Origin: Candidatus Liptonbacteria bacterium
GTDB lineage: Bacteria > Patescibacteriota > Minisyncoccia > UBA6257 > 2-01-FULL-56-20
Reading direction: 5' to 3'
NCBI GenBank assembly: GCA_016212635.1
Contig: JACRFR010000023.1
Location: 1 to 35,987 of the forward strand
Length of the DNA stretch: 35,987 nucleotides
Position 1 is the first letter of the stretch. Every line of letters begins with the position of its first letter. Made by a program: the position numbers and the translations under genes. Positions 13,658 to 32,380 of this stretch are shown one piece after another. Below the pieces are notes generated by a model. That model ran no database searches, was not told where the DNA came from, and worked only from the letters and a program-made list of their open reading frames with translations.

Positions 13658-14017
13658 ATGAGACATAAACAGATCATTGTTGGAGTAGTACTGTTGCTTT
13701 TAGTGATCGGCGCCAGCTGGTATTTTTTTGTGCCGCGAGCCGAGCCGGGAGCCGCGGCGCTGGCGGAGTGCCTGCGGGACAAGGGCGTGACCATGTACGG
13801 TTCCGCGACCTGCATTCACTGTCTCAAGCAGAAAAAACTCTTTGGCTCCGCTTTTAGTTTAGTGCCCTATGTGGAGTGTCCCGACAATCCCCAGATGTGT
13901 CTGGCCAAAGGGATCCAGGGGTTCCCGACCTGGGTAATGCCGGATGGCCGCAAGCTGGAAGGGGAGCAATCTTTCGCCGCGCTCTCGAGCGCGAGCGGCT
14001 GTACGCTGCCACAATGA
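13658..14017 (+). CDS. Membrane-anchored thioredoxin-like protein (CIHC)
   Basis: N-terminal TM; 'TMYGSATCIHCLKQKKLFG...VECPDNPQMCLAKGIQGFPTWVMPDGRKLEG'. Confidence 0.8.
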   Translation: MRHKQIIVGVVLLLLVIGASWYFFVPRAEPGAAALAECLRDKGVTMYGSATCIHCLKQKKLFGSAFSLVPYVECPDNPQMCLAKGIQGFPTWVMPDGRKLEGEQSFAALSSASGCTLPQ

Positions 14018-14061
14018 CTAATGACTAATTAACTGTCAATAGTCAATCGTCAATCGTCGCT
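14013..14061. repeat. Heptamer array (aatgact x2, aattaac, tgtcaat, agtcaat, cgtcaat, cgtcgct)
   Basis: Seven consecutive 7-nt units; contains the stop codon (TGA 14015-14017) of the upstream gene. Confidence 0.8.
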
Positions 14062-14065
14062 TTTT

Positions 14066-15334
14066 ATGAAGATCCAAAACTGGAAAGAACTCGCAACCTC
14101 CGATCTGCGGCGGACGGCTTTAAATTTGGCGGAGACCGCGCTCGCGGCAATCGATACTCGCCCCGCGGTGCGGCGCGCGGTGGCGTGGGAAGATTCAAAT
14201 TTGCGGATCGGCGAAGAGCGCCTGGCCCGCGCGGCGCTCCGCCGGATCTTTTTAGTAACGGTCGGCAAGTGTGCGGGCGATGCGGCCGCGGCACTGGAGG
14301 AAATTCTGGGCGATCAGCTTGCGGCGGGAATCGCTCTGGACATAAAACCGAACTCGAGTTTACGGAAAGTCAACATCCTGGTTGGTACTCACCCCCTACC
14401 TTCCGCCGAGAATGTGGCCGCGGCCCATAAAATACTAGACCTACTGCGCGCGGCGGGGCTGCAAGCCGATGATCTGGTATTAGTAGTTGTTTCCGGCGGC
14501 GGTTCCACCTTGCTCTGCACCGATCGCCCCGCGGAGGAACGCGGGCTATTCCAAAACCTAACTCGCAGCGGCGCGACCATCCAGGAGATGAACACGGTTC
14601 GCAAACACCTCTCAATGCTGCGGGGCGGGTTTCTGGCCCAGGCGGCTTACCCGGCCCAGGTCCGCGGGCTGATATTTTCGGACGTACCGGGGAACGACAT
14701 CCAATTTATCGCTTCCGGCCCGACGGTAGCGGACGCGACCACCATCGCCGACGCGGAACAGGTGCTGGCGCGGTATGGCCTGCCTCCCGCAACCGGCTGG
14801 ATGGAAACGCCCAAAGACCCGAAGTATTTTCAAAACGTGCGAAACTTGACGGTCGTATCCAACGCAGTGGCACTCCAGGCAATGGCCGCCGCGGCGCAGT
14901 CTGCCGGTTACGCCGCAAGCGTGGTAACTGAAACCTTATCCGGCGAAGCGGCCGCTATCGGCCGCCAAGTACTCGCGGATTTGAAGGGCCGGCCGGGGCG
15001 AACAGTACTGCTCTATGGCGGCGAGACCACGGTCACAGTGCGCGGGGCGGGTCGGGGCGGCCGTAACCTGGAGGTGGCCCTGGCTGCGTTACCCGAGATC
15101 GGTGCGAACGAACTTATTCTGACTTTGGCCACGGACGGGCACGACAATGGTCCCTGGTCGGGCGCGATCTGTGATATAATCACCCAGGCGTCCGCGAACC
15201 AGATCCATCTCCAGCCCGACGCTTTCTTGGCCGGGAATGACTCTTATGGATTTTTCGAATTAGTCGGCAACTATCTGGTAACCGGACCGACCGGGGCCAA
15301 CGTGTCGGATATAATCATCGCGCTCAAGGAGTAG
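14066..15334 (+). CDS. Glycerate 2-kinase (DUF4147/MOFRL)
   Basis: 'VVVSGGGSTLLCTDRP', 'ATIQEMNTVRKHLSMLRGG', 'DVPGNDIQFIASGPTVAD', 'LATDGHDN'. Confidence 0.9.
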   Translation: MKIQNWKELATSDLRRTALNLAETALAAIDTRPAVRRAVAWEDSNLRIGEERLARAALRRIFLVTVGKCAGDAAAALEEILGDQLAAGIALDIKPNSSLRKVNILVGTHPLPSAENVAAAHKILDLLRAAGLQADDLVLVVVSGGGSTLLCTDRPAEERGLFQNLTRSGATIQEMNTVRKHLSMLRGGFLAQAAYPAQVRGLIFSDVPGNDIQFIASGPTVADATTIADAEQVLARYGLPPATGWMETPKDPKYFQNVRNLTVVSNAVALQAMAAAAQSAGYAASVVTETLSGEAAAIGRQVLADLKGRPGRTVLLYGGETTVTVRGAGRGGRNLEVALAALPEIGANELILTLATDGHDNGPWSGAICDIITQASANQIHLQPDAFLAGNDSYGFFELVGNYLVTGPTGANVSDIIIALKE

Positions 15335-15524: not shown

Positions 15525-17972
15525 ATGATTTCCAAGAAACTAGTAATTCCTCTAGACAAAGTCACCCTACGTGACGTGCCAAGCGTCGGCGGCAAAAATG
15601 CGTCCCTGGGCGAACTGCTGCACGATCTGGCCCCCCAAGGAGTCCGTATTCCCGGCGGTTTTGCGGTTACGGCGGAGGCCTATCGCTTCTTCTTACAAGA
15701 AACTGGCCTGGATAGGACCATCCGCCGCACTCTCAAGGGCCTGAACGTCCACGATCTGGCCGACCTGGCCCGGCGCGGCCTCTCGGTGCGCGAGGCGATC
15801 CGCGGCACGGAATTGCCGAAACCACTGGCCCAAGCGATCCGCAGATCCTACGCACAGATGGAACGGCACTATGGCCGTAAAGTGGACGTGGCGGTGCGCT
15901 CCAGCGCGACGGCGGAAGACCTGCCCGGGGCGAGCTTCGCCGGCGAGCATGAAACCTTCTTAAACATGCGCGGCGCCGAGGAGGTGCTGGCCGCGGTCCG
16001 CGCGGCGATGGCATCTCTCTTTACCAATCGAGCGATCTCCTATCGCGTGGACAAGGGCTTTGACCATTTTAAAGTGGCTCTCTCGGTCGGCGTCCAAAAA
16101 ATGGTTCGGTCGGATCTGGGTTGCTCCGGCGTGATGTTCACCCTGGATACCGAGTCCGGTTTTAAAGACGTGGTTCTGATCAATGGCGCCTGGGGCTTGG
16201 GTGAGTTGATCGTACAGGGGGAGGTTACGCCCGACGAATTTCTGGTTTTTAAACCGACCCTGGCGGACGGTCGGCACGCGCTGATCTCTAAACGCCTGGG
16301 CGTCAAGAATCGCAAGTTTGTGTACAACTCCAATCGCGGCTTGCACAGCATCAAGCTAGCCAAGACCTCGCCGCGGGAGCTGGGCACATTCGTGCTAACC
16401 GAGAATGAAGTGCTGACCCTGGCCCGCTGGGGCGCGGCGATTGAAAAGCACTACAGCGCTCGTGCTAAGCGCTGGACGCCCATGGATATCGAGTGGGCCA
16501 AAGACGGCCGCACCGGGGAACTCTTCATCGTCCAGGCGCGGCCGGAAACGATCCATGCCGGGCGGGACTACGCCAAAGTCCGGCAGTATACGCGCACCCA
16601 AGACGCTCCGGTCCTGGTCCGAGGAGCGGCGGTCGGAAGCGCCATCGCGTCCGGGACCGCGCGGGTAATTTTAGACGCCAAACATATCCGCGAGTTCAAA
16701 CCCGGCGAGGCGCTGGTTACGACCATGACCGATCCGGACTGGGAGCCGATCATGAAGATCGCGGCCGCCATCGTAACCAACAAAGGGGGACGGACCAGTC
16801 ACGCCGCGATCGTCTCGCGCGAGTTGGGCATCCCTTGCGTAGTGGGTACCGAGCGCGCCACCCGCAAAATTAGAACCGGTCAGAAGATAACCGTGGACGC
16901 ATCGGGTAATGAGGGTCTGGTCCTCCAAGGCACGGTGCCGTTTCACATCACCGAGCATGACGTGAAGAAAATGCCCCAGACGCGCACCGAGATCATGGTC
17001 AACGTGGCGATTCCGGATAGCGCCTTCGCCGCTTCTTTCCTGCCGGTTCGGGGGGTAGGGTTGGCCCGGGAGGAGTTCATTATTGCTTCCCAGATCGGCG
17101 TTCACCCGTTGGCCGCGCTCCATTTTAAAAAATTACCGCCTGTTCTGCGCCGCAAGATCCATAAACAAATGGCTGGCTGGACCGACCCGGTAGAGTATTA
17201 TGTGGACAAGCTGGCCTACGGCATCGCCAAGATCGGCGCCGCCTTTTATCCCCGGCCGGTCATCGTACGCTTCTCGGATTTCAAAACTAACGAGTACCGC
17301 ACCTTGCCGGGCGGAGAGCTGTACGAACCCAAGGAAGAGAATCCTATGATCGGCTGGCGGGGCGCGTCCCGTTATTACCATCCCGATTTCGCGCCGGCTT
17401 TCGCCTTGGAGTGCCGGGCGCTCCGAAAAGCCCGCACGGACATGGGGCTGACCAATATTATTCCGATGATACCTTTCTGCCGTACGTCGGAGGAGGGTCG
17501 AAAAGTAGTGGCGCTGATGAAAAAACACGGCCTGGATCGAGCCACGGACAAAACTTTAAAGGTTTATGTGATGTGCGAAATACCCGCGAACGTAATTCTG
17601 GCAGACCAGTTCTTAAATATATTCGATGGCATGTCCATTGGCTCCAATGACCTGACCCAGCTTACGGTGGGCATTGATCGCGATGGTAGCGCCTTGGTGC
17701 GGGGTATCGCCAACGAGAACGACCCTTCGGTCCGGCAATTAATCACAGAGGCGATCCAGCGCTGTCGGGCGCGGCATAAGTACATCGGGATCTGCGGCCA
17801 GGGGCCGTCGGATATGCCGGACTTCGCGCAATTTCTAGTTAAACAGGGGATAGAGAGCATGTCGCTCAATCCGGACTCGGTCGTGCCCACTTTGCTCGCA
17901 GTGGCCAGACTGGAAAAGAAAATAGCGAAGAGCGAAAAGCGAAGAGCGAAAAGCGAAAAGAGAGAGAAATAA
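15525..17972 (+). CDS. ppsA: Phosphoenolpyruvate synthase
   Basis: 'AVRSSATAEDLPGASFAGEHETFLN', 'GGRTSHAAIVSRELGIPCVVGT', 'SIGSNDLTQLTVGIDRD'; 815 aa. Confidence 0.96.
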   Translation: MISKKLVIPLDKVTLRDVPSVGGKNASLGELLHDLAPQGVRIPGGFAVTAEAYRFFLQETGLDRTIRRTLKGLNVHDLADLARRGLSVREAIRGTELPKPLAQAIRRSYAQMERHYGRKVDVAVRSSATAEDLPGASFAGEHETFLNMRGAEEVLAAVRAAMASLFTNRAISYRVDKGFDHFKVALSVGVQKMVRSDLGCSGVMFTLDTESGFKDVVLINGAWGLGELIVQGEVTPDEFLVFKPTLADGRHALISKRLGVKNRKFVYNSNRGLHSIKLAKTSPRELGTFVLTENEVLTLARWGAAIEKHYSARAKRWTPMDIEWAKDGRTGELFIVQARPETIHAGRDYAKVRQYTRTQDAPVLVRGAAVGSAIASGTARVILDAKHIREFKPGEALVTTMTDPDWEPIMKIAAAIVTNKGGRTSHAAIVSRELGIPCVVGTERATRKIRTGQKITVDASGNEGLVLQGTVPFHITEHDVKKMPQTRTEIMVNVAIPDSAFAASFLPVRGVGLAREEFIIASQIGVHPLAALHFKKLPPVLRRKIHKQMAGWTDPVEYYVDKLAYGIAKIGAAFYPRPVIVRFSDFKTNEYRTLPGGELYEPKEENPMIGWRGASRYYHPDFAPAFALECRALRKARTDMGLTNIIPMIPFCRTSEEGRKVVALMKKHGLDRATDKTLKVYVMCEIPANVILADQFLNIFDGMSIGSNDLTQLTVGIDRDGSALVRGIANENDPSVRQLITEAIQRCRARHKYIGICGQGPSDMPDFAQFLVKQGIESMSLNPDSVVPTLLAVARLEKKIAKSEKRRAKSEKREK
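17924..17965 (+). repeat. Heptamer array AGCGAAR x6 at the 3' end of ppsA
   Basis: agcgaag agcgaaa agcgaag agcgaaa agcgaaa agagaga; encodes the KSEKRRAKSEKREK tail. Confidence 0.85.
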
Positions 17973-19467: not shown

Positions 19468-19469
19468 TA

Positions 19470-19553
19470 TTGACCATCGACCATTGACGCTTGACCATTG
19501 ACGCTTGACTCTTGACTCCTGACTTCTGACCCCTGACACTCGATCCATGACCC
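19470..19553. repeat. Heptamer array, 12 units of YTGACNN in unbroken register
   Basis: ttgacca tcgacca ttgacgc ttgacca ttgacgc ttgactc ttgactc ctgactt ctgaccc ctgacac tcgatcc ATGaccc; last unit contains the next gene's start codon. Confidence 0.9.
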
Positions 19554-20785
19554 GGATACTTATCCTGGGCGGCGGCTTCGGCGGCACTTATCTGCTGCGC
19601 TCGCTTCGCCGTAAAATCGCACCCTCGCAGATTACTTTAGTAACTCGGGACGACTACTTTACGTTCACCCCTTTGCTCCACGAGGTTGCGACCGGCGGCT
19701 TGGCCCCCGCCACCATCACCGAACCGCTCCGCGATCTGAACGAAGATAACCGAGTGGGCCTGGCCCGAGCGGAAATTCGACGGATACGTCTCCAGGATCG
19801 CGTGGTCGAAACCGATCAAGGAGAAATCTCCTACGATTGCTTGGCGGTCGCGCTGGGTTCGGAATCGGAGGATCATGGCACGCCCGGAGTTGCCGAGCAC
19901 GCTCTGATCTTGAAGTCCTTGTCCGATGCAGTCCGGATCAAGAACCATGTTTTAAATCAGGTTCAAGCGGCGGCTCGCGCCACGAATCCGGTCGAGCAAC
20001 AAAGGCTCGCGCGGGTGGTGGTGGTCGGCGGCGGCGCGACCGGAATAGAGTTGGCTGCGGAGCTCGCGGATCTCTACCGGCACACTTTGCGCGGCCTCTA
20101 TCCCGAGCTTTTTCGAGATACTAGATTCGGTCCCGAGTTGGTTCTGCTGGCCAAGGCCGATGAACTTTTGTCTTATCTACCCCCATACTTCCGTACGCGC
20201 AGTCATACCGCGCTCACGCGGATGGGAGTCGTTGTACGCTTGGGCGTCACGGTTACGGCAGTCGGTACGCAGGGGGTCCGGCTCATGGGTGGCGAGGAAA
20301 TAGCTAGCGGCACGGTCTTATGGGCGGCGGGAGTGAGGCCTAGCCGGGTAGAGTTTCAGCCGGCGGTGCCGCGGTCCGCTCGCGGGCGAGTAATCGTTTC
20401 CCCGAATCTAAATTTAGCGGAGTTTCCGGAAGTATTCGTTCTGGGCGACATGGGGACCCCGGCTGGTCTCCCCGTGCCGGAGTTGGCCCAGGCGGCGACC
20501 AAAGAGGCGGAAGTGGTTGCGGGGAATATTCTCCGTCACCTGGCCCGGCGGCCGCTCCGGCCATTTCGCTATCGTTCTTCGGGCAGTCTGCTGTCCTTGG
20601 GTCGCTGGCAGGCGATCGCGCAGATCGGCCCGGTACATTTAAGGGGACCGTTTGCCTGGTGGTTGTGGCGGACGATCTATTTGAGTAAACTATTGACCGG
20701 GCGCAAGCGCTTGGCGGTCGCGCTGGAATGGACGGTCAATCTTTTCCGTCCTCGCGATACCCGCATAGTGAACGACAATCATTAA
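19547..20785 (+). CDS. NDH-2-like FAD/NAD(P) oxidoreductase
   Basis: 'RILILGGGFGGTYLLRSL', 'VVVVGGGATGIELAAELAD', 'FVLGDMGTPAGLPVPELAQAATKEAEVVAGNI'. Confidence 0.92.
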   Translation: MTRILILGGGFGGTYLLRSLRRKIAPSQITLVTRDDYFTFTPLLHEVATGGLAPATITEPLRDLNEDNRVGLARAEIRRIRLQDRVVETDQGEISYDCLAVALGSESEDHGTPGVAEHALILKSLSDAVRIKNHVLNQVQAAARATNPVEQQRLARVVVVGGGATGIELAAELADLYRHTLRGLYPELFRDTRFGPELVLLAKADELLSYLPPYFRTRSHTALTRMGVVVRLGVTVTAVGTQGVRLMGGEEIASGTVLWAAGVRPSRVEFQPAVPRSARGRVIVSPNLNLAEFPEVFVLGDMGTPAGLPVPELAQAATKEAEVVAGNILRHLARRPLRPFRYRSSGSLLSLGRWQAIAQIGPVHLRGPFAWWLWRTIYLSKLLTGRKRLAVALEWTVNLFRPRDTRIVNDNH

Positions 20786-20839
20786 TCATTAATCATTAAT
20801 CATCCGTCATCCATCATTAATCATTAATCATTACTAATC
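20777..20839. repeat. Heptamer array AATCATT-type, 9 units
   Basis: aatcatt x3 aatcatc cgtcatc catcatt aatcatt x2 actaatc; contains upstream stop TAA (20783-20785), ends 2 nt before ATG 20842. Confidence 0.9.
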
Positions 20840-20841
20840 CC

Positions 20842-22005
20842 ATGCCTCCCGAAATTATCCCGGATCAATTTGGTCCCGAGTACGTTATTCAAGTATCCGA
20901 TTCCTCGGTGGGTATGAAAGGCTTTTTGGTGATCGACAACACCGCGCGCGGCCCGGGCAAGGGCGGTCTGCGCATGACGCCGAACGTCACTGCCGAGGAG
21001 GTCTTCCGCTTGGCGCGGGCCATGACCTGGAAAAATGCGCTGGCGGATATTCCTTTTGGCGGCGCCAAGTCCGGCATTGTATGGGAAGCGAGGAGCGAAG
21101 AGGGAAGAGCGAAGAGTGAAGAACGAAAAAGGAGCTACGTCCAAAGTTTTGCCCGGGCGCTCAAACCACTACTGATTAAAAAATATATCGCCGGTCCGGA
21201 TGTGAGTTCCGGCGAAAGAGAAATGCAGTGGTTCGTGGAGGCGGTGGGGAATTGGCGGGCCGCGACCGGCAAGCCGGCCAACTACTGCATGAGCGTTTTT
21301 GGCAAGGAGGGGGAGCGCTGCGGCATTCCCCACGAGTTCGGCTCGACCGGTTTCGGCGTGGTCAAGTCCGCCGCGGTGGCGGCCGAGATCGCGGGGATTA
21401 ATTTGAAAGGCGCGAGGGTGGCCATCCACGGTTTCGGCAATGTGGGCACTTTCGCCTACCAGTACTTGACCGAGATGGGCGCCACGGTGGTGGCGCTGGC
21501 TGACCGGCTGGGAGCGGTTTACTCGTCGCGCGGTTTTGAGAAGCGGGCGATAGCCGATGCCATCCAAAACAAGAAAGAACTAACAAAAGTTTTTCCCAAG
21601 AATAAAATACCGTCGGAGGATTTCTGGTCCTTGCCGGTGGATATTCTGATCCCGGCTTCGGTGACTGATGTTATTCATGAAAAAAATTATCGCGGCATCC
21701 AGGCGCGCCTGATCGTAGAAGGCGGCAATATTCCCATGCGGGAAGAGATCGAAGAAAAGCTTTTCGCCAAAGGCGTTGTGATCGTGCCGGACTTTGTGGC
21801 CAATGCCGGCGGGGTGATCTCCTCCTATGCGGAGTACCGCGGCTATAACCCCAAGCGCATGTTCGAGCTGGTGGAGCGGAAAATCACCAAGACTACCCGC
21901 CGGGTCCTGGAATTAAGCGCCAAGCGGAAAATAAGCCCCCGGCGAGTAGCGCTAGAATTGGCCCAAAAACTGGTTCGGGAACGAATGGCTAAGCGGCGCA
22001 GCTAG
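20842..22005 (+). CDS. Glu/Leu/Phe/Val dehydrogenase
   Basis: 'GPGKGGLRMTPNVTAEEVFRLARAMTWKNALADIPFGGAKSGI', 'VAIHGFGNVGTFAYQYLTEMGATVVALAD'. Confidence 0.95.
   Translation: MPPEIIPDQFGPEYVIQVSDSSVGMKGFLVIDNTARGPGKGGLRMTPNVTAEEVFRLARAMTWKNALADIPFGGAKSGIVWEARSEEGRAKSEERKRSYVQSFARALKPLLIKKYIAGPDVSSGEREMQWFVEAVGNWRAATGKPANYCMSVFGKEGERCGIPHEFGSTGFGVVKSAAVAAEIAGINLKGARVAIHGFGNVGTFAYQYLTEMGATVVALADRLGAVYSSRGFEKRAIADAIQNKKELTKVFPKNKIPSEDFWSLPVDILIPASVTDVIHEKNYRGIQARLIVEGGNIPMREEIEEKLFAKGVVIVPDFVANAGGVISSYAEYRGYNPKRMFELVERKITKTTRRVLELSAKRKISPRRVALELAQKLVRERMAKRRS
21086..21127 (+). repeat. In-frame heptamer array GAGCGAA x6 inside the dehydrogenase gene
   Basis: aagcgag gagcgaa gagggaa gagcgaa gagtgaa gaacgaa = 42 nt, encodes ARSEEGRAKSEERK. 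Confidence 0.85.
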
Positions 22006-22105: not shown

Positions 22106-22145
22106 ATCTGCTAGTTTGACAACGATCGTTGTCAAACTAGCAGAT
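22106..22145. repeat. Perfect 40-bp palindrome
   Basis: ATCTGCTAGTTTGACAACGA|TCGTTGTCAAACTAGCAGAT with no loop; followed by direct repeat AACCACACTCC x2. Confidence 0.9.
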
Positions 22146-22253
22146 AAGATAACCACACTCCAACCACACTCCAAAATTGACTTAACTGTCAAGTTGTTTT
22201 AGTTTTTAGCGAGCGTCTAGAAAATTTAAAATGACGCAAAAAGGAGGCCCAAA

Positions 22254-25571: not shown

Positions 25572-26504
25572 ATGCCCAACACTCTTGGTTACGACCAGCC
25601 GCTTTTTATCCTGGCTTTTGACCAGCGGGCTTCGATTTTAGAGAAGCTTCTTCAATTGTCTCCGGGTCAGACGCCATCGCCGGAAGTGGCGGATCAAATG
25701 GAGCGCTTTAAAACTGCTATTTATGAGGGTTTTCGCTATGCTCTGGCACACGGCGTACCGCAAGCAGAAGCGGCAATTCTAGTGGATGAGCAGTACGGCC
25801 ACGCGATTCTGCACGACGCTGTCTTCCACGGCTTCACCGTGGCGCTGACCACCGAGAAGACTGGTCAACACGAATTCGATTTTGAGTATGGCGATGAGTT
25901 CACCTCCCACCTCCTGAAATACCGCCCGACTTTCGCCAAGGTGCTGGTGCGGCATAACCCCGAAGCGGGGGATGCGTTAAACGTCCACGAGCATGCCAAG
26001 CTGGTCCGGCTGCGGGAGTTTTGCGACCGGGAGAACTTCAAGCTCTTGGTCGAGTTGATCTTGCCTCCGACCGATGCGCAGCTGGCCTGGGTGGGCAACG
26101 ACCTGGCCCGCTACGATCGCGAAATTCGACCCGCCCTGGAAATTAAGCTGGTCAAACAGTTTCAAAACGCAGGGATCGAGGCGGACGTTTGGAAAATAGA
26201 AGGCTTGACCAGCGCGGAGCAGTATCGGGCGTTGGTCGGCCAGGTGCAAAGCGGGGGACGAGATAAGGTCGGCGTGGCGGTGCTCGGCCGCGCGGCGAGC
26301 GATGAGCAAGTGGAAGAGTGGCTCCGGGTCGGCGCGGGCGTGGACGGGGTGATCGGTTTCGCCGTGGGCCGGACAATTTTCTGGGAGCCGATCGCGCGTT
26401 ACCACCAAGGGAGCCAGACCTGGGAACAAACCGTGGAGCAGATTGGCGAACACTATCTGCATTTTTATCGAGTTTTTAGTAACATCAAGTCGAAAAAGTC
26501 ATAG
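25572..26504 (+). CDS. DUF2090 / IolC C-terminal-like aldolase
   Basis: 'LFILAFDQRASI', 'LVDEQYG', 'LVRHNPE', 'FAVGRTIFWEP'; TIM-barrel DUF2090-like. Confidence 0.75.
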   Translation: MPNTLGYDQPLFILAFDQRASILEKLLQLSPGQTPSPEVADQMERFKTAIYEGFRYALAHGVPQAEAAILVDEQYGHAILHDAVFHGFTVALTTEKTGQHEFDFEYGDEFTSHLLKYRPTFAKVLVRHNPEAGDALNVHEHAKLVRLREFCDRENFKLLVELILPPTDAQLAWVGNDLARYDREIRPALEIKLVKQFQNAGIEADVWKIEGLTSAEQYRALVGQVQSGGRDKVGVAVLGRAASDEQVEEWLRVGAGVDGVIGFAVGRTIFWEPIARYHQGSQTWEQTVEQIGEHYLHFYRVFSNIKSKKS

Positions 26505-26551
26505 GTCATAAGTCAATAGTCATTAGTCATCAGTCAATCAATACTCATGCC
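26496..26551. repeat. Heptamer array, 8 units of NAGTCAN
   Basis: aagtcat aggtcat aagtcaa tagtcat tagtcat cagtcaa tcaatac tcATGcc; includes upstream stop TAG 26502-26504 and downstream ATG 26547. Confidence 0.88.
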
Positions 26552-27271: not shown

Positions 27272-28279
27272 ATGGATCTTGTGCCGGATCCGGAAACATC
27301 GATCATGCGCAAATCCATCCTAGAATTTCCGCGGCAGTTCGAGTTTGAGCCGGTCATCGCGAACGCGGATAAGTTCCGGCGATCGCCGCACGTCATCGTC
27401 TGCGGCATGGGTGGGTCGCACCTGGCTGGCGACTTTTTGAATCCGATCGAGCCAGAAATAAATCTGCGTGTTTGGAGTGACTACGGTTTACCGCCAGTCC
27501 CAGAGGATGAATTGCAGGACTCCTTGATCATTGTGAGTTCCTACTCCGGCAATACTGAAGAGACGCTGGATGCTTATCGCGCGGCCCGGGAGCGAGGTCT
27601 GTCACTGGCCGCGGTGGCGGTCGGTGGTAAGCTTCTGGAGTTGGCCAAGAAGGATGGCGTGCCATATGTCCAACTGCCGGACACCGGTATCCAGCCGCGA
27701 ATGGCCTTGGGCTTCAGCTTGCGTGCCATGCTCGCCTTAATCGGGGACCAAGACGGCCTGCAAGGGACGCGGGGGCTGGCCCAGGACCTGCCCGCCGAGG
27801 TTTTGGAGTCGGAGGGGCGCGACTTGGCCAAGTGGCTCAAGAACTACGTACCGGTTGTTTACGCTTCCGACTCTAACCGGTCGCTGGCTTACTACTGGAA
27901 GATAACCTTAAACGAGACCGGTAAGATCCCGGCTTTCTATAATGTTCTGCCGGAGCTGAATCACAACGAGATGAACGGCTTTGATGTTAAGTCCGGTTCT
28001 CGCCCACTGGCCCAGAACTTCGCTTTTATTTTCCTTTCAGATACCGACGACCACCCGTTGGTTCAAAAACGCATGGCGATATTGAAATCTATGTACCAAG
28101 ACCGCAAGCTGCCGGTCCGAACCATCCCACTTGTAGGTCAAACCAAGTATCATAAGCTGTTTACCAGTGTCCTTCTGGCAATTTGGACCGCGTTCTGCGT
28201 CGCCGAGCAATATGGCCTGGAACCGGAGCAGGTCCCGATGGTGGAGGAATTTAAAAGGCTAGTGACTACTGACCGATGA
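27272..28279 (+). CDS. Bifunctional phosphoglucose/phosphomannose isomerase (SIS)
   Basis: 'VIVCGMGGSHLAGDFL', 'IIVSSYSGNTEETLDAYRAA', 'LPELNHNEMNGF'. Confidence 0.92.
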   Translation: MDLVPDPETSIMRKSILEFPRQFEFEPVIANADKFRRSPHVIVCGMGGSHLAGDFLNPIEPEINLRVWSDYGLPPVPEDELQDSLIIVSSYSGNTEETLDAYRAARERGLSLAAVAVGGKLLELAKKDGVPYVQLPDTGIQPRMALGFSLRAMLALIGDQDGLQGTRGLAQDLPAEVLESEGRDLAKWLKNYVPVVYASDSNRSLAYYWKITLNETGKIPAFYNVLPELNHNEMNGFDVKSGSRPLAQNFAFIFLSDTDDHPLVQKRMAILKSMYQDRKLPVRTIPLVGQTKYHKLFTSVLLAIWTAFCVAEQYGLEPEQVPMVEEFKRLVTTDR

Positions 28280-28302
28280 CCATTGACTATTGACTGTTGA
28301 CT
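28261..28302. repeat. Heptamer array, 6 units of NNTGACY
   Basis: agtgact actgacc gatgacc attgact attgact gttgact; contains upstream stop TGA 28277-28279. Confidence 0.85.
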
Positions 28303-28321
28303 AGGGGGCGGGGAGTAAGGG

Positions 28322-29559: not shown

Positions 29560-29931
29560 GTGCTAATGATTATGCCTGCGCCGATTAGATCTAAGGAATA
29601 TTACTGGACATTCCATGCGCGCAATAAAATGCGCCAGTACCAGTTGTCGGAGCAAAGGGTACGGCGGGTGCTCCACTCCCCGGCGCGGATCGAGGAGGGG
29701 ATTGCGCCCAATACTATTGCGGCCATGCAGGTGGTTCCCGCGCCCAAGCGCCCCTATGAGATCTGGGTCATGTTGCAATCTGTAAGTCGAAAGTCAGAAG
29801 TTAAGGGTCAAAAGTCAAAGGTCAAAGGTCACGAGTCAAAGATCATTTCCGCCTGGCGCTATCCCGGCCGCACCAAGCCCGGCGATCCTATTCCAGCGGA
29901 GATATTACGAGAGCTAAGAATGCTGGCGTGA
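29560..29931 (+). CDS. Hypothetical small protein (DUF4258-like?)
   Basis: 'YYWTFHARNKMRQYQLSEQRVRRVLHSPARIEEGIAPNTIAAMQ...IISAWRYPGRTKPGDPIP'; family assignment uncertain. Confidence 0.6.
   Translation: MLMIMPAPIRSKEYYWTFHARNKMRQYQLSEQRVRRVLHSPARIEEGIAPNTIAAMQVVPAPKRPYEIWVMLQSVSRKSEVKGQKSKVKGHESKIISAWRYPGRTKPGDPIPAEILRELRMLA
29784..29846 (+). repeat. In-frame heptamer array, 9 units of NAGTCAA
   Basis: aagtcga aagtcag aagttaa gggtcaa aagtcaa aggtcaa aggtcac gagtcaa agatcat = 63 nt (21 codons) within 29560-29931. Confidence 0.88.
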
Positions 29932-32343: not shown

Positions 32344-32371
32344 TAGCGAAAAGCGAAAAGCGATAAGCGAA
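32344..32371. repeat. Heptamer array tagcgaa aagcgaa aagcgat aagcgaa
   Basis: Four AAGCGAA units, same consensus as the ppsA 3'-end array. Confidence 0.8.
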
Positions 32372-32380
32372 AAATAAGAG

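Follow-up and report, generated by a model that had tools for sequence, protein, structure and literature searches.

A heptamer array in the loop of a probable glutamate dehydrogenase from Candidatus Liptonbacteria: likely a coding member of a genome-wide seven-base repeat family

The window analyzed here is the whole 35,987-nt stretch of contig 63 from a draft MAG of Candidatus Liptonbacteria (1.02 Mb, 94% complete, 0.09% contamination), which is the only genome of its genus among those compared. On the + strand, positions 20842..22005 encode an intact 387-amino-acid dehydrogenase. Both the N-terminal domain (PF02812; 1.3e-26, 93.2 bits, cut-off 25.3) and the NAD-binding domain (PF00208; 1e-46, 160.1 bits, cut-off 23.4) score above the Pfam cut-offs, which places the product in the Glu/Leu/Phe/Val dehydrogenase superfamily. 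The nearest PDB entries in sequence as well as in fold are Thermus glutamate dehydrogenases, and the best Foldseek matches of the predicted model are all glutamate dehydrogenases, with E values down to 5.5e-33 and TM scores of 0.75-0.85. The product is probably a glutamate dehydrogenase (GDH) within this superfamily.

The gene contains a heptamer array at 21086..21127 (+ strand), recognized by TRF, translation, and alignment. It is composed of six imperfect GAGCGAA-type units (canonical form AAGAGCG), which read aagcgag gagcgaa gagggaa gagcgaa gagtgaa gaacgaa and remain in frame. TRF reports the array at 21087-21127 with a period of 7, 5.9 copies, 82% matches, and a score of 54. Residues 82-95 (EARSEEGRAKSEER) are encoded by the array and are followed by KR. 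The 7-nt self-match of the array is 28. When the same peptide was recoded with random synonymous codons at the usage of this genome, the mean self-match was 14.0 and 28 was reached in 3 of 100,000 recodings (P = 3e-5); random peptides gave a mean of 9.4, and none of 100,000 reached 28. At the other periods from 5 to 12, the self-match of the array is 9-16. Because the array exceeds both nulls, the periodic signal lies in the DNA and not in the amino acids alone, and a 7-nt period over at least about four units is present beyond chance. The initial annotation had described an in-frame period-7 array in an otherwise intact enzyme, and the sequence, TRF, Pfam, and the synonymous null all bear this out. 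It had also placed the array directly after the GGAKSGI segment, where VW in fact intervenes (GGAKSGI-VW, then the array).

The GDH was compared with relatives from Parcubacteria/Paceibacteria, Liptonbacteria included. The spacer from the GGAKxG segment to the VQSFAR helix has 22 residues in this GDH versus 15 in most relatives (IVW-PGG-SDE-KK..V). The net gain is therefore 7 residues, or 21 nt, which equals three heptamers. An insertion of 14 codons had been proposed; the gain is half as long, since some of the array sits on residues aligned with the standard [S/T]DE.KK start of the helix. The array is absent from about 36 aligned GDH relatives, in agreement with the expectation that close relatives lack it, and the period-7 scan was positive in only one of 35 GDH ORFs, namely this one. 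An ancestral charged segment whose codons show no 7-nt periodicity had been named as the contrary outcome; the relatives lack the segment, which rules out its ancestry, and the codons are periodic. In the AlphaFold model (mean pLDDT 90), a strand at residues 73-80 is followed by a weak block at 81-90 (mean pLDDT 57) and a helix at 86-110. According to these bounds and the low-pLDDT block, the array encodes the loop together with the beginning of the following helix, which correspond to codons 82-97 (EARSEEGRAKSEERKR; 21085..21132, + strand; translation and AlphaFold). The expanded loop predicted after the GGAKxGI motif thus appears in the model as an extension of the loop and helix start at residues 81-90. 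The loop is presumably tolerated and exposed at the surface, and the enzyme would have normal activity, with the array probably neutral.

The same GDH loop is an insertion hot spot that carries other in-frame inserts in relatives. Five of them (L075, L077, L079, L098, and L106) have 10-residue (~30 nt) in-frame inserts, with two copies in L077, while the insert is shorter in L100 and long in L016. The DNA of these five relatives' 10-residue inserts contains inverted-repeat stems, for example CCGCC...GGCGG and CCAGCCG...CGGCTGG, which differ in sequence across genomes yet remain paired. This looks like a coding-sequence hairpin preserved through compensating changes.

TRF also detected other arrays on the + strand of the window. 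An AATCATT array (20777..20833) spans the stop codon of an NDH-2-like gene and ends 8 nt upstream of the start codon of GDH. A GAAAAGC/GAAGAGC array (17913..17960) encodes the C-terminal tail (EKKIAKSEKRRAKSEK) of a pyruvate phosphate dikinase-like ORF (15525-17972, supported by Pfam) and shares its unit family with the GDH array. Intergenic arrays include a TTGACTC-type array (19468..19537) that stops 9 nt short of the start codon at 19547, AATGACT and GTCAATC arrays (14013..14058) that stop 7 nt short of the one at 14066, and an AGCGAAA array (32345..32373). An AAGTCAT-type array (26496..26538) lies over a stop codon and ends about 9 nt upstream of the start codon at 26547, and a CTATTGA-type array (28259..28303) covers the stop codon at 28279. 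An AAGTCAA-type array (29784..29845) is located within a small ORF (29560-29931) that has no Pfam match. About 100 nt past the GDH stop codon, a perfect 40-nt palindrome (atctgctagtttgacaacgatcgttgtcaaactagcagat) occurs at 22106-22145, with an 11-nt tandem repeat just after it at 22151-22174.

Beyond the window, TRF found 110 period-7 arrays in 514 kb of the MAG versus none in a Markov control; the next most common periods were 9 (35 arrays) and 10 (13 arrays). At a lower threshold, 808 kb yielded 200 period-7 arrays with only 61 canonical unit types, versus about 179 expected from as many random heptamers of the genome. A single-substitution network joins 57 of the 61 types, whereas the null averages 26% and peaks at 62%, and AAGAGCG, the GDH unit, is joint commonest with 19 of the 200 arrays. 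Many arrays of related units, linked in one network, are thus spread across the genome. The GDH array had initially been regarded as an isolated occurrence in a single enzyme; it belongs instead to a heptamer family that extends across the genome and has dozens of members in core genes. Exact heptamer runs reach 15.7 per 100 kb here versus about 2 across the first sample of relatives, and 10 and 17 per 100 kb, from small samples, in the genomes G010 and G042. No MutS_V domain turned up in this MAG, although 11 of 14 control genomes have one, which is compatible with a slippage mechanism but not decisive.

Many arrays sit at gene junctions. Genes were called with a simple custom hexamer-score caller that fixes array positions relative to genes only approximately; by these calls, the coding strand is purine-rich in 23 of the 34 arrays that lie closest to a stop codon and pyrimidine-rich in 25 of the 29 that lie closest to a start codon (Fisher p=2.8e-5). 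At the junctions in L040, L038, L065, and L057, a purine-rich array follows the stop codon and a pyrimidine-rich array precedes the next start codon, and these pairs form imperfect inverted arms that flank a short spacer. No common flanks or element ends were seen around the arrays in the loci inspected by eye, and a mobile element with fixed flanks was rejected for these loci on that ground. A flank comparison of 168 arrays gave 120 similar pairs, with other repeats among them.

In the 514 kb sample, 43 of 110 arrays (about 40%) are within or overlap predicted genes, and the per-base density of arrays is about six times lower in genes than in intergenic sequence. Hosts named by Pfam include an IleRS-type synthetase (several arrays), another class-I synthetase, a class-V aminotransferase (three), TIM (two), RpoA, SecA, and the ATP synthase gamma subunit (AtpG), together with TrmD-, Fmt-, Fpg-, SpoU-, PcnB-, and UDP-glucose-dehydrogenase-type enzymes. 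In the Pfam and orthologue analyses of host genes, some minus-strand genes lacked their start codon, which leaves the conclusions unaffected. A synonymous-null scan of 425 genes of this genome gave 42 period-7 peaks in 28 genes versus 0-4 peaks at the control periods 4, 5, 8, 10, 11, and 13. Arrays that could be aligned to orthologues fall mostly in variable loops. In the IleRS-type ORF (L062:2476-6144, contig 32), a histidine-phosphatase-superfamily domain is located inside the synthetase at residues of about 506-665; the orthologues of many relatives align across this region, and others do not. The aminotransferase (L038:10219-11628, residues of about 93-107 and 355-372) and L192 carry a second dispersed repeat that encodes an NESxANLRIRKF-like peptide and matches several other places of the genome in different frames.

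Arrays also occur in the orthologues of other genera. The scan by empirical P gave 31 period-7 peaks in TIM (48 ORFs), 38 in IleRS (30 ORFs), 25 in the aminotransferase (26 ORFs), and 1 in GDH (35 ORFs), with 0-2 peaks per gene at each control period. TIM, IleRS, and the aminotransferase together have 94 period-7 peaks versus at most 4 at any control period. In these three enzymes, the arrays of other genera often lie in matching loops but are built from different units. The two main array loops of TIM precede YEPxWA and VLYGGS (L160-L189, L260-L277). The loop before VLYGGS is positive (P<0.01) at period 7 in 20 of 45 sequences, versus 0-2 at other periods. Among the TIM control segments, the downstream one was positive in 0 of 45 and the upstream one in 11 of 45; the latter is not a clean control because arrays in several genomes lie near or overlap it (the loop before YEPxW). 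TIM units vary by genome (CTACTCG, AAACCTA, AGTTCGA, ATTCCAT, and AAAGCTT), and nearly all array-bearing TIM loops have 12-14 residues. Arrays in TIM and IleRS often substitute for sequence at constant length, whereas the GDH loop grew. A phylum-wide IleRS sample had 7 peaks in 83 kb versus 38 in 104 kb for nearer relatives.

Together with these data, it can be proposed with reasonable though incomplete confidence that the GDH array is a coding member of the genome-wide heptamer family and arose by a slippage-type gain of three units that kept the frame in a tolerant loop. Most likely, 7-nt units would multiply through slippage-type tandem duplication that favours a connected set of units. In GDH, a net gain of three units would have kept the frame and extended the loop that leads from the GGAKxG segment into the next helix, and the array may have persisted because this loop accepts insertions, with no function of the array being required. 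Selection would then filter the arrays and remove most of them from genes; the six-fold lower density inside genes is as expected if this is so. Two observations count against slippage: the small connected unit set exceeds what blind slippage on random sequence yields, and the replacement at constant length in TIM and IleRS is left unexplained by simple expansion. A broader claim, for which confidence is evenly balanced, is that a 7-nt process continually rewrites the loops of core enzymes in this Patescibacteria order and would be a main source of their loop sequences, with the GDH array as a fresh example.

The small unit set would be better explained if arrays were copied between places by recombination, gene conversion, or a mobile process not yet known, so that the GDH copy came as an array. 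The restriction to 61 unit types among 200 arrays against a null of about 179, the inclusion of 57 types in the single-substitution network, and the units shared by in-gene and intergenic arrays all speak for copying. This origin is nevertheless considered rather unlikely, as the loci inspected by eye have no common flanks or ends, many of the flank pairs that do look similar are other repeats, and the net lengthening of GDH amounts to exactly three units. The position of the charged extension next to a conserved active-site segment of a fully intact enzyme might indicate an adaptive change in regulation, assembly, or partner contact. Arrays of the GDH family, however, are also found in unrelated enzymes and between genes, the loop of relatives holds unrelated inserts or none, and the peptide is a consequence of the DNA repeat; an adaptive role is thus very improbable. 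Purine-rich codons do by themselves give a higher 7-nt self-match (mean 14.0 in the synonymous null versus 9.4 for random peptides), and the genome is a draft MAG, but an assembly artefact, or chance or biased codon use in a loop rich in K, R, and E, is scarcely credible as the source. The synonymous null (P = 3e-5) rejects chance or codon bias for the GDH array, the genome has 200 period-7 arrays, reading frames in core genes are kept, and the orthologous loops of relatives also have period 7.

The GDH array therefore appears to be a single imprint of a seven-base repeat process acting across the genome, and no special feature of GDH. Known heptamer arrays are mostly intergenic, whereas here they are found in frame in the middle of essential enzymes, with many per genome and in matching loops across genera. 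This provides a testable case of mutational bias that shapes protein loops and poses the question of why the period is 7. It also serves as a warning that odd K/R/E/S-rich or LLATRYSLL-like segments of Patescibacteria proteins may be repeat-derived and non-functional. The literature searched, mostly open-access papers, yielded no account of such arrays for Patescibacteria; because of this scope, the density of heptamer arrays inside housekeeping enzymes is only provisionally regarded as undescribed so far.

Direct repeats of the heptamer TAACTGA are known from marine Beggiatoaceae, Cyanobacteria, and Bacteroidetes (MacGregor 2015, PMC4679880). Like the arrays here, they are short tandem runs of a 7-nt unit dispersed across genomes, often located before start codons or across stop codons and sometimes in ORFs. 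They differ in having one fixed, mostly intergenic unit, with ORF cases mostly in hypothetical proteins or at protein ends, whereas 61 related units occur here and many arrays lie in the middle of core enzymes. The GDH unit is of the AAGAGCG type and is thus no TAACTGA repeat in the strict sense. In the GGGAATC repeats of Xanthomonas and the GGGGA(C/T)T repeats of Nostoc, arrays after genes have the purine/G-rich sequence on the coding strand, and arrays before genes have it on the opposite strand (PMC4692102), and the strand bias found here agrees with this rule. Those repeats are G-rich and G-quadruplex-capable (PMC4692102), while the GDH array lacks such G-runs; the same paper cites a polymerase-contact idea on why the period is 7. 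Phase-variable heptanucleotide repeats (for example HMW of Haemophilus influenzae and NeuO of E. coli K1) are likewise tandem and near or in genes, and they change by slippage, but they switch surface genes through frame or promoter changes, while the host here is a metabolic enzyme. Rickettsia palindromic elements are in-frame palindromic inserts in housekeeping proteins. They resemble the present arrays as selfish-looking repeats tolerated in frame within housekeeping proteins, but they are longer palindromes, whereas the GDH array is a purine-rich tandem heptamer repeat in direct orientation, without a palindrome or a visible inverted partner in the gene, and so is not an inverted repeat of this kind. 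The hairpin inserts in the GDH loop of relatives are closer to the Rickettsia palindromic elements than the GDH array is.
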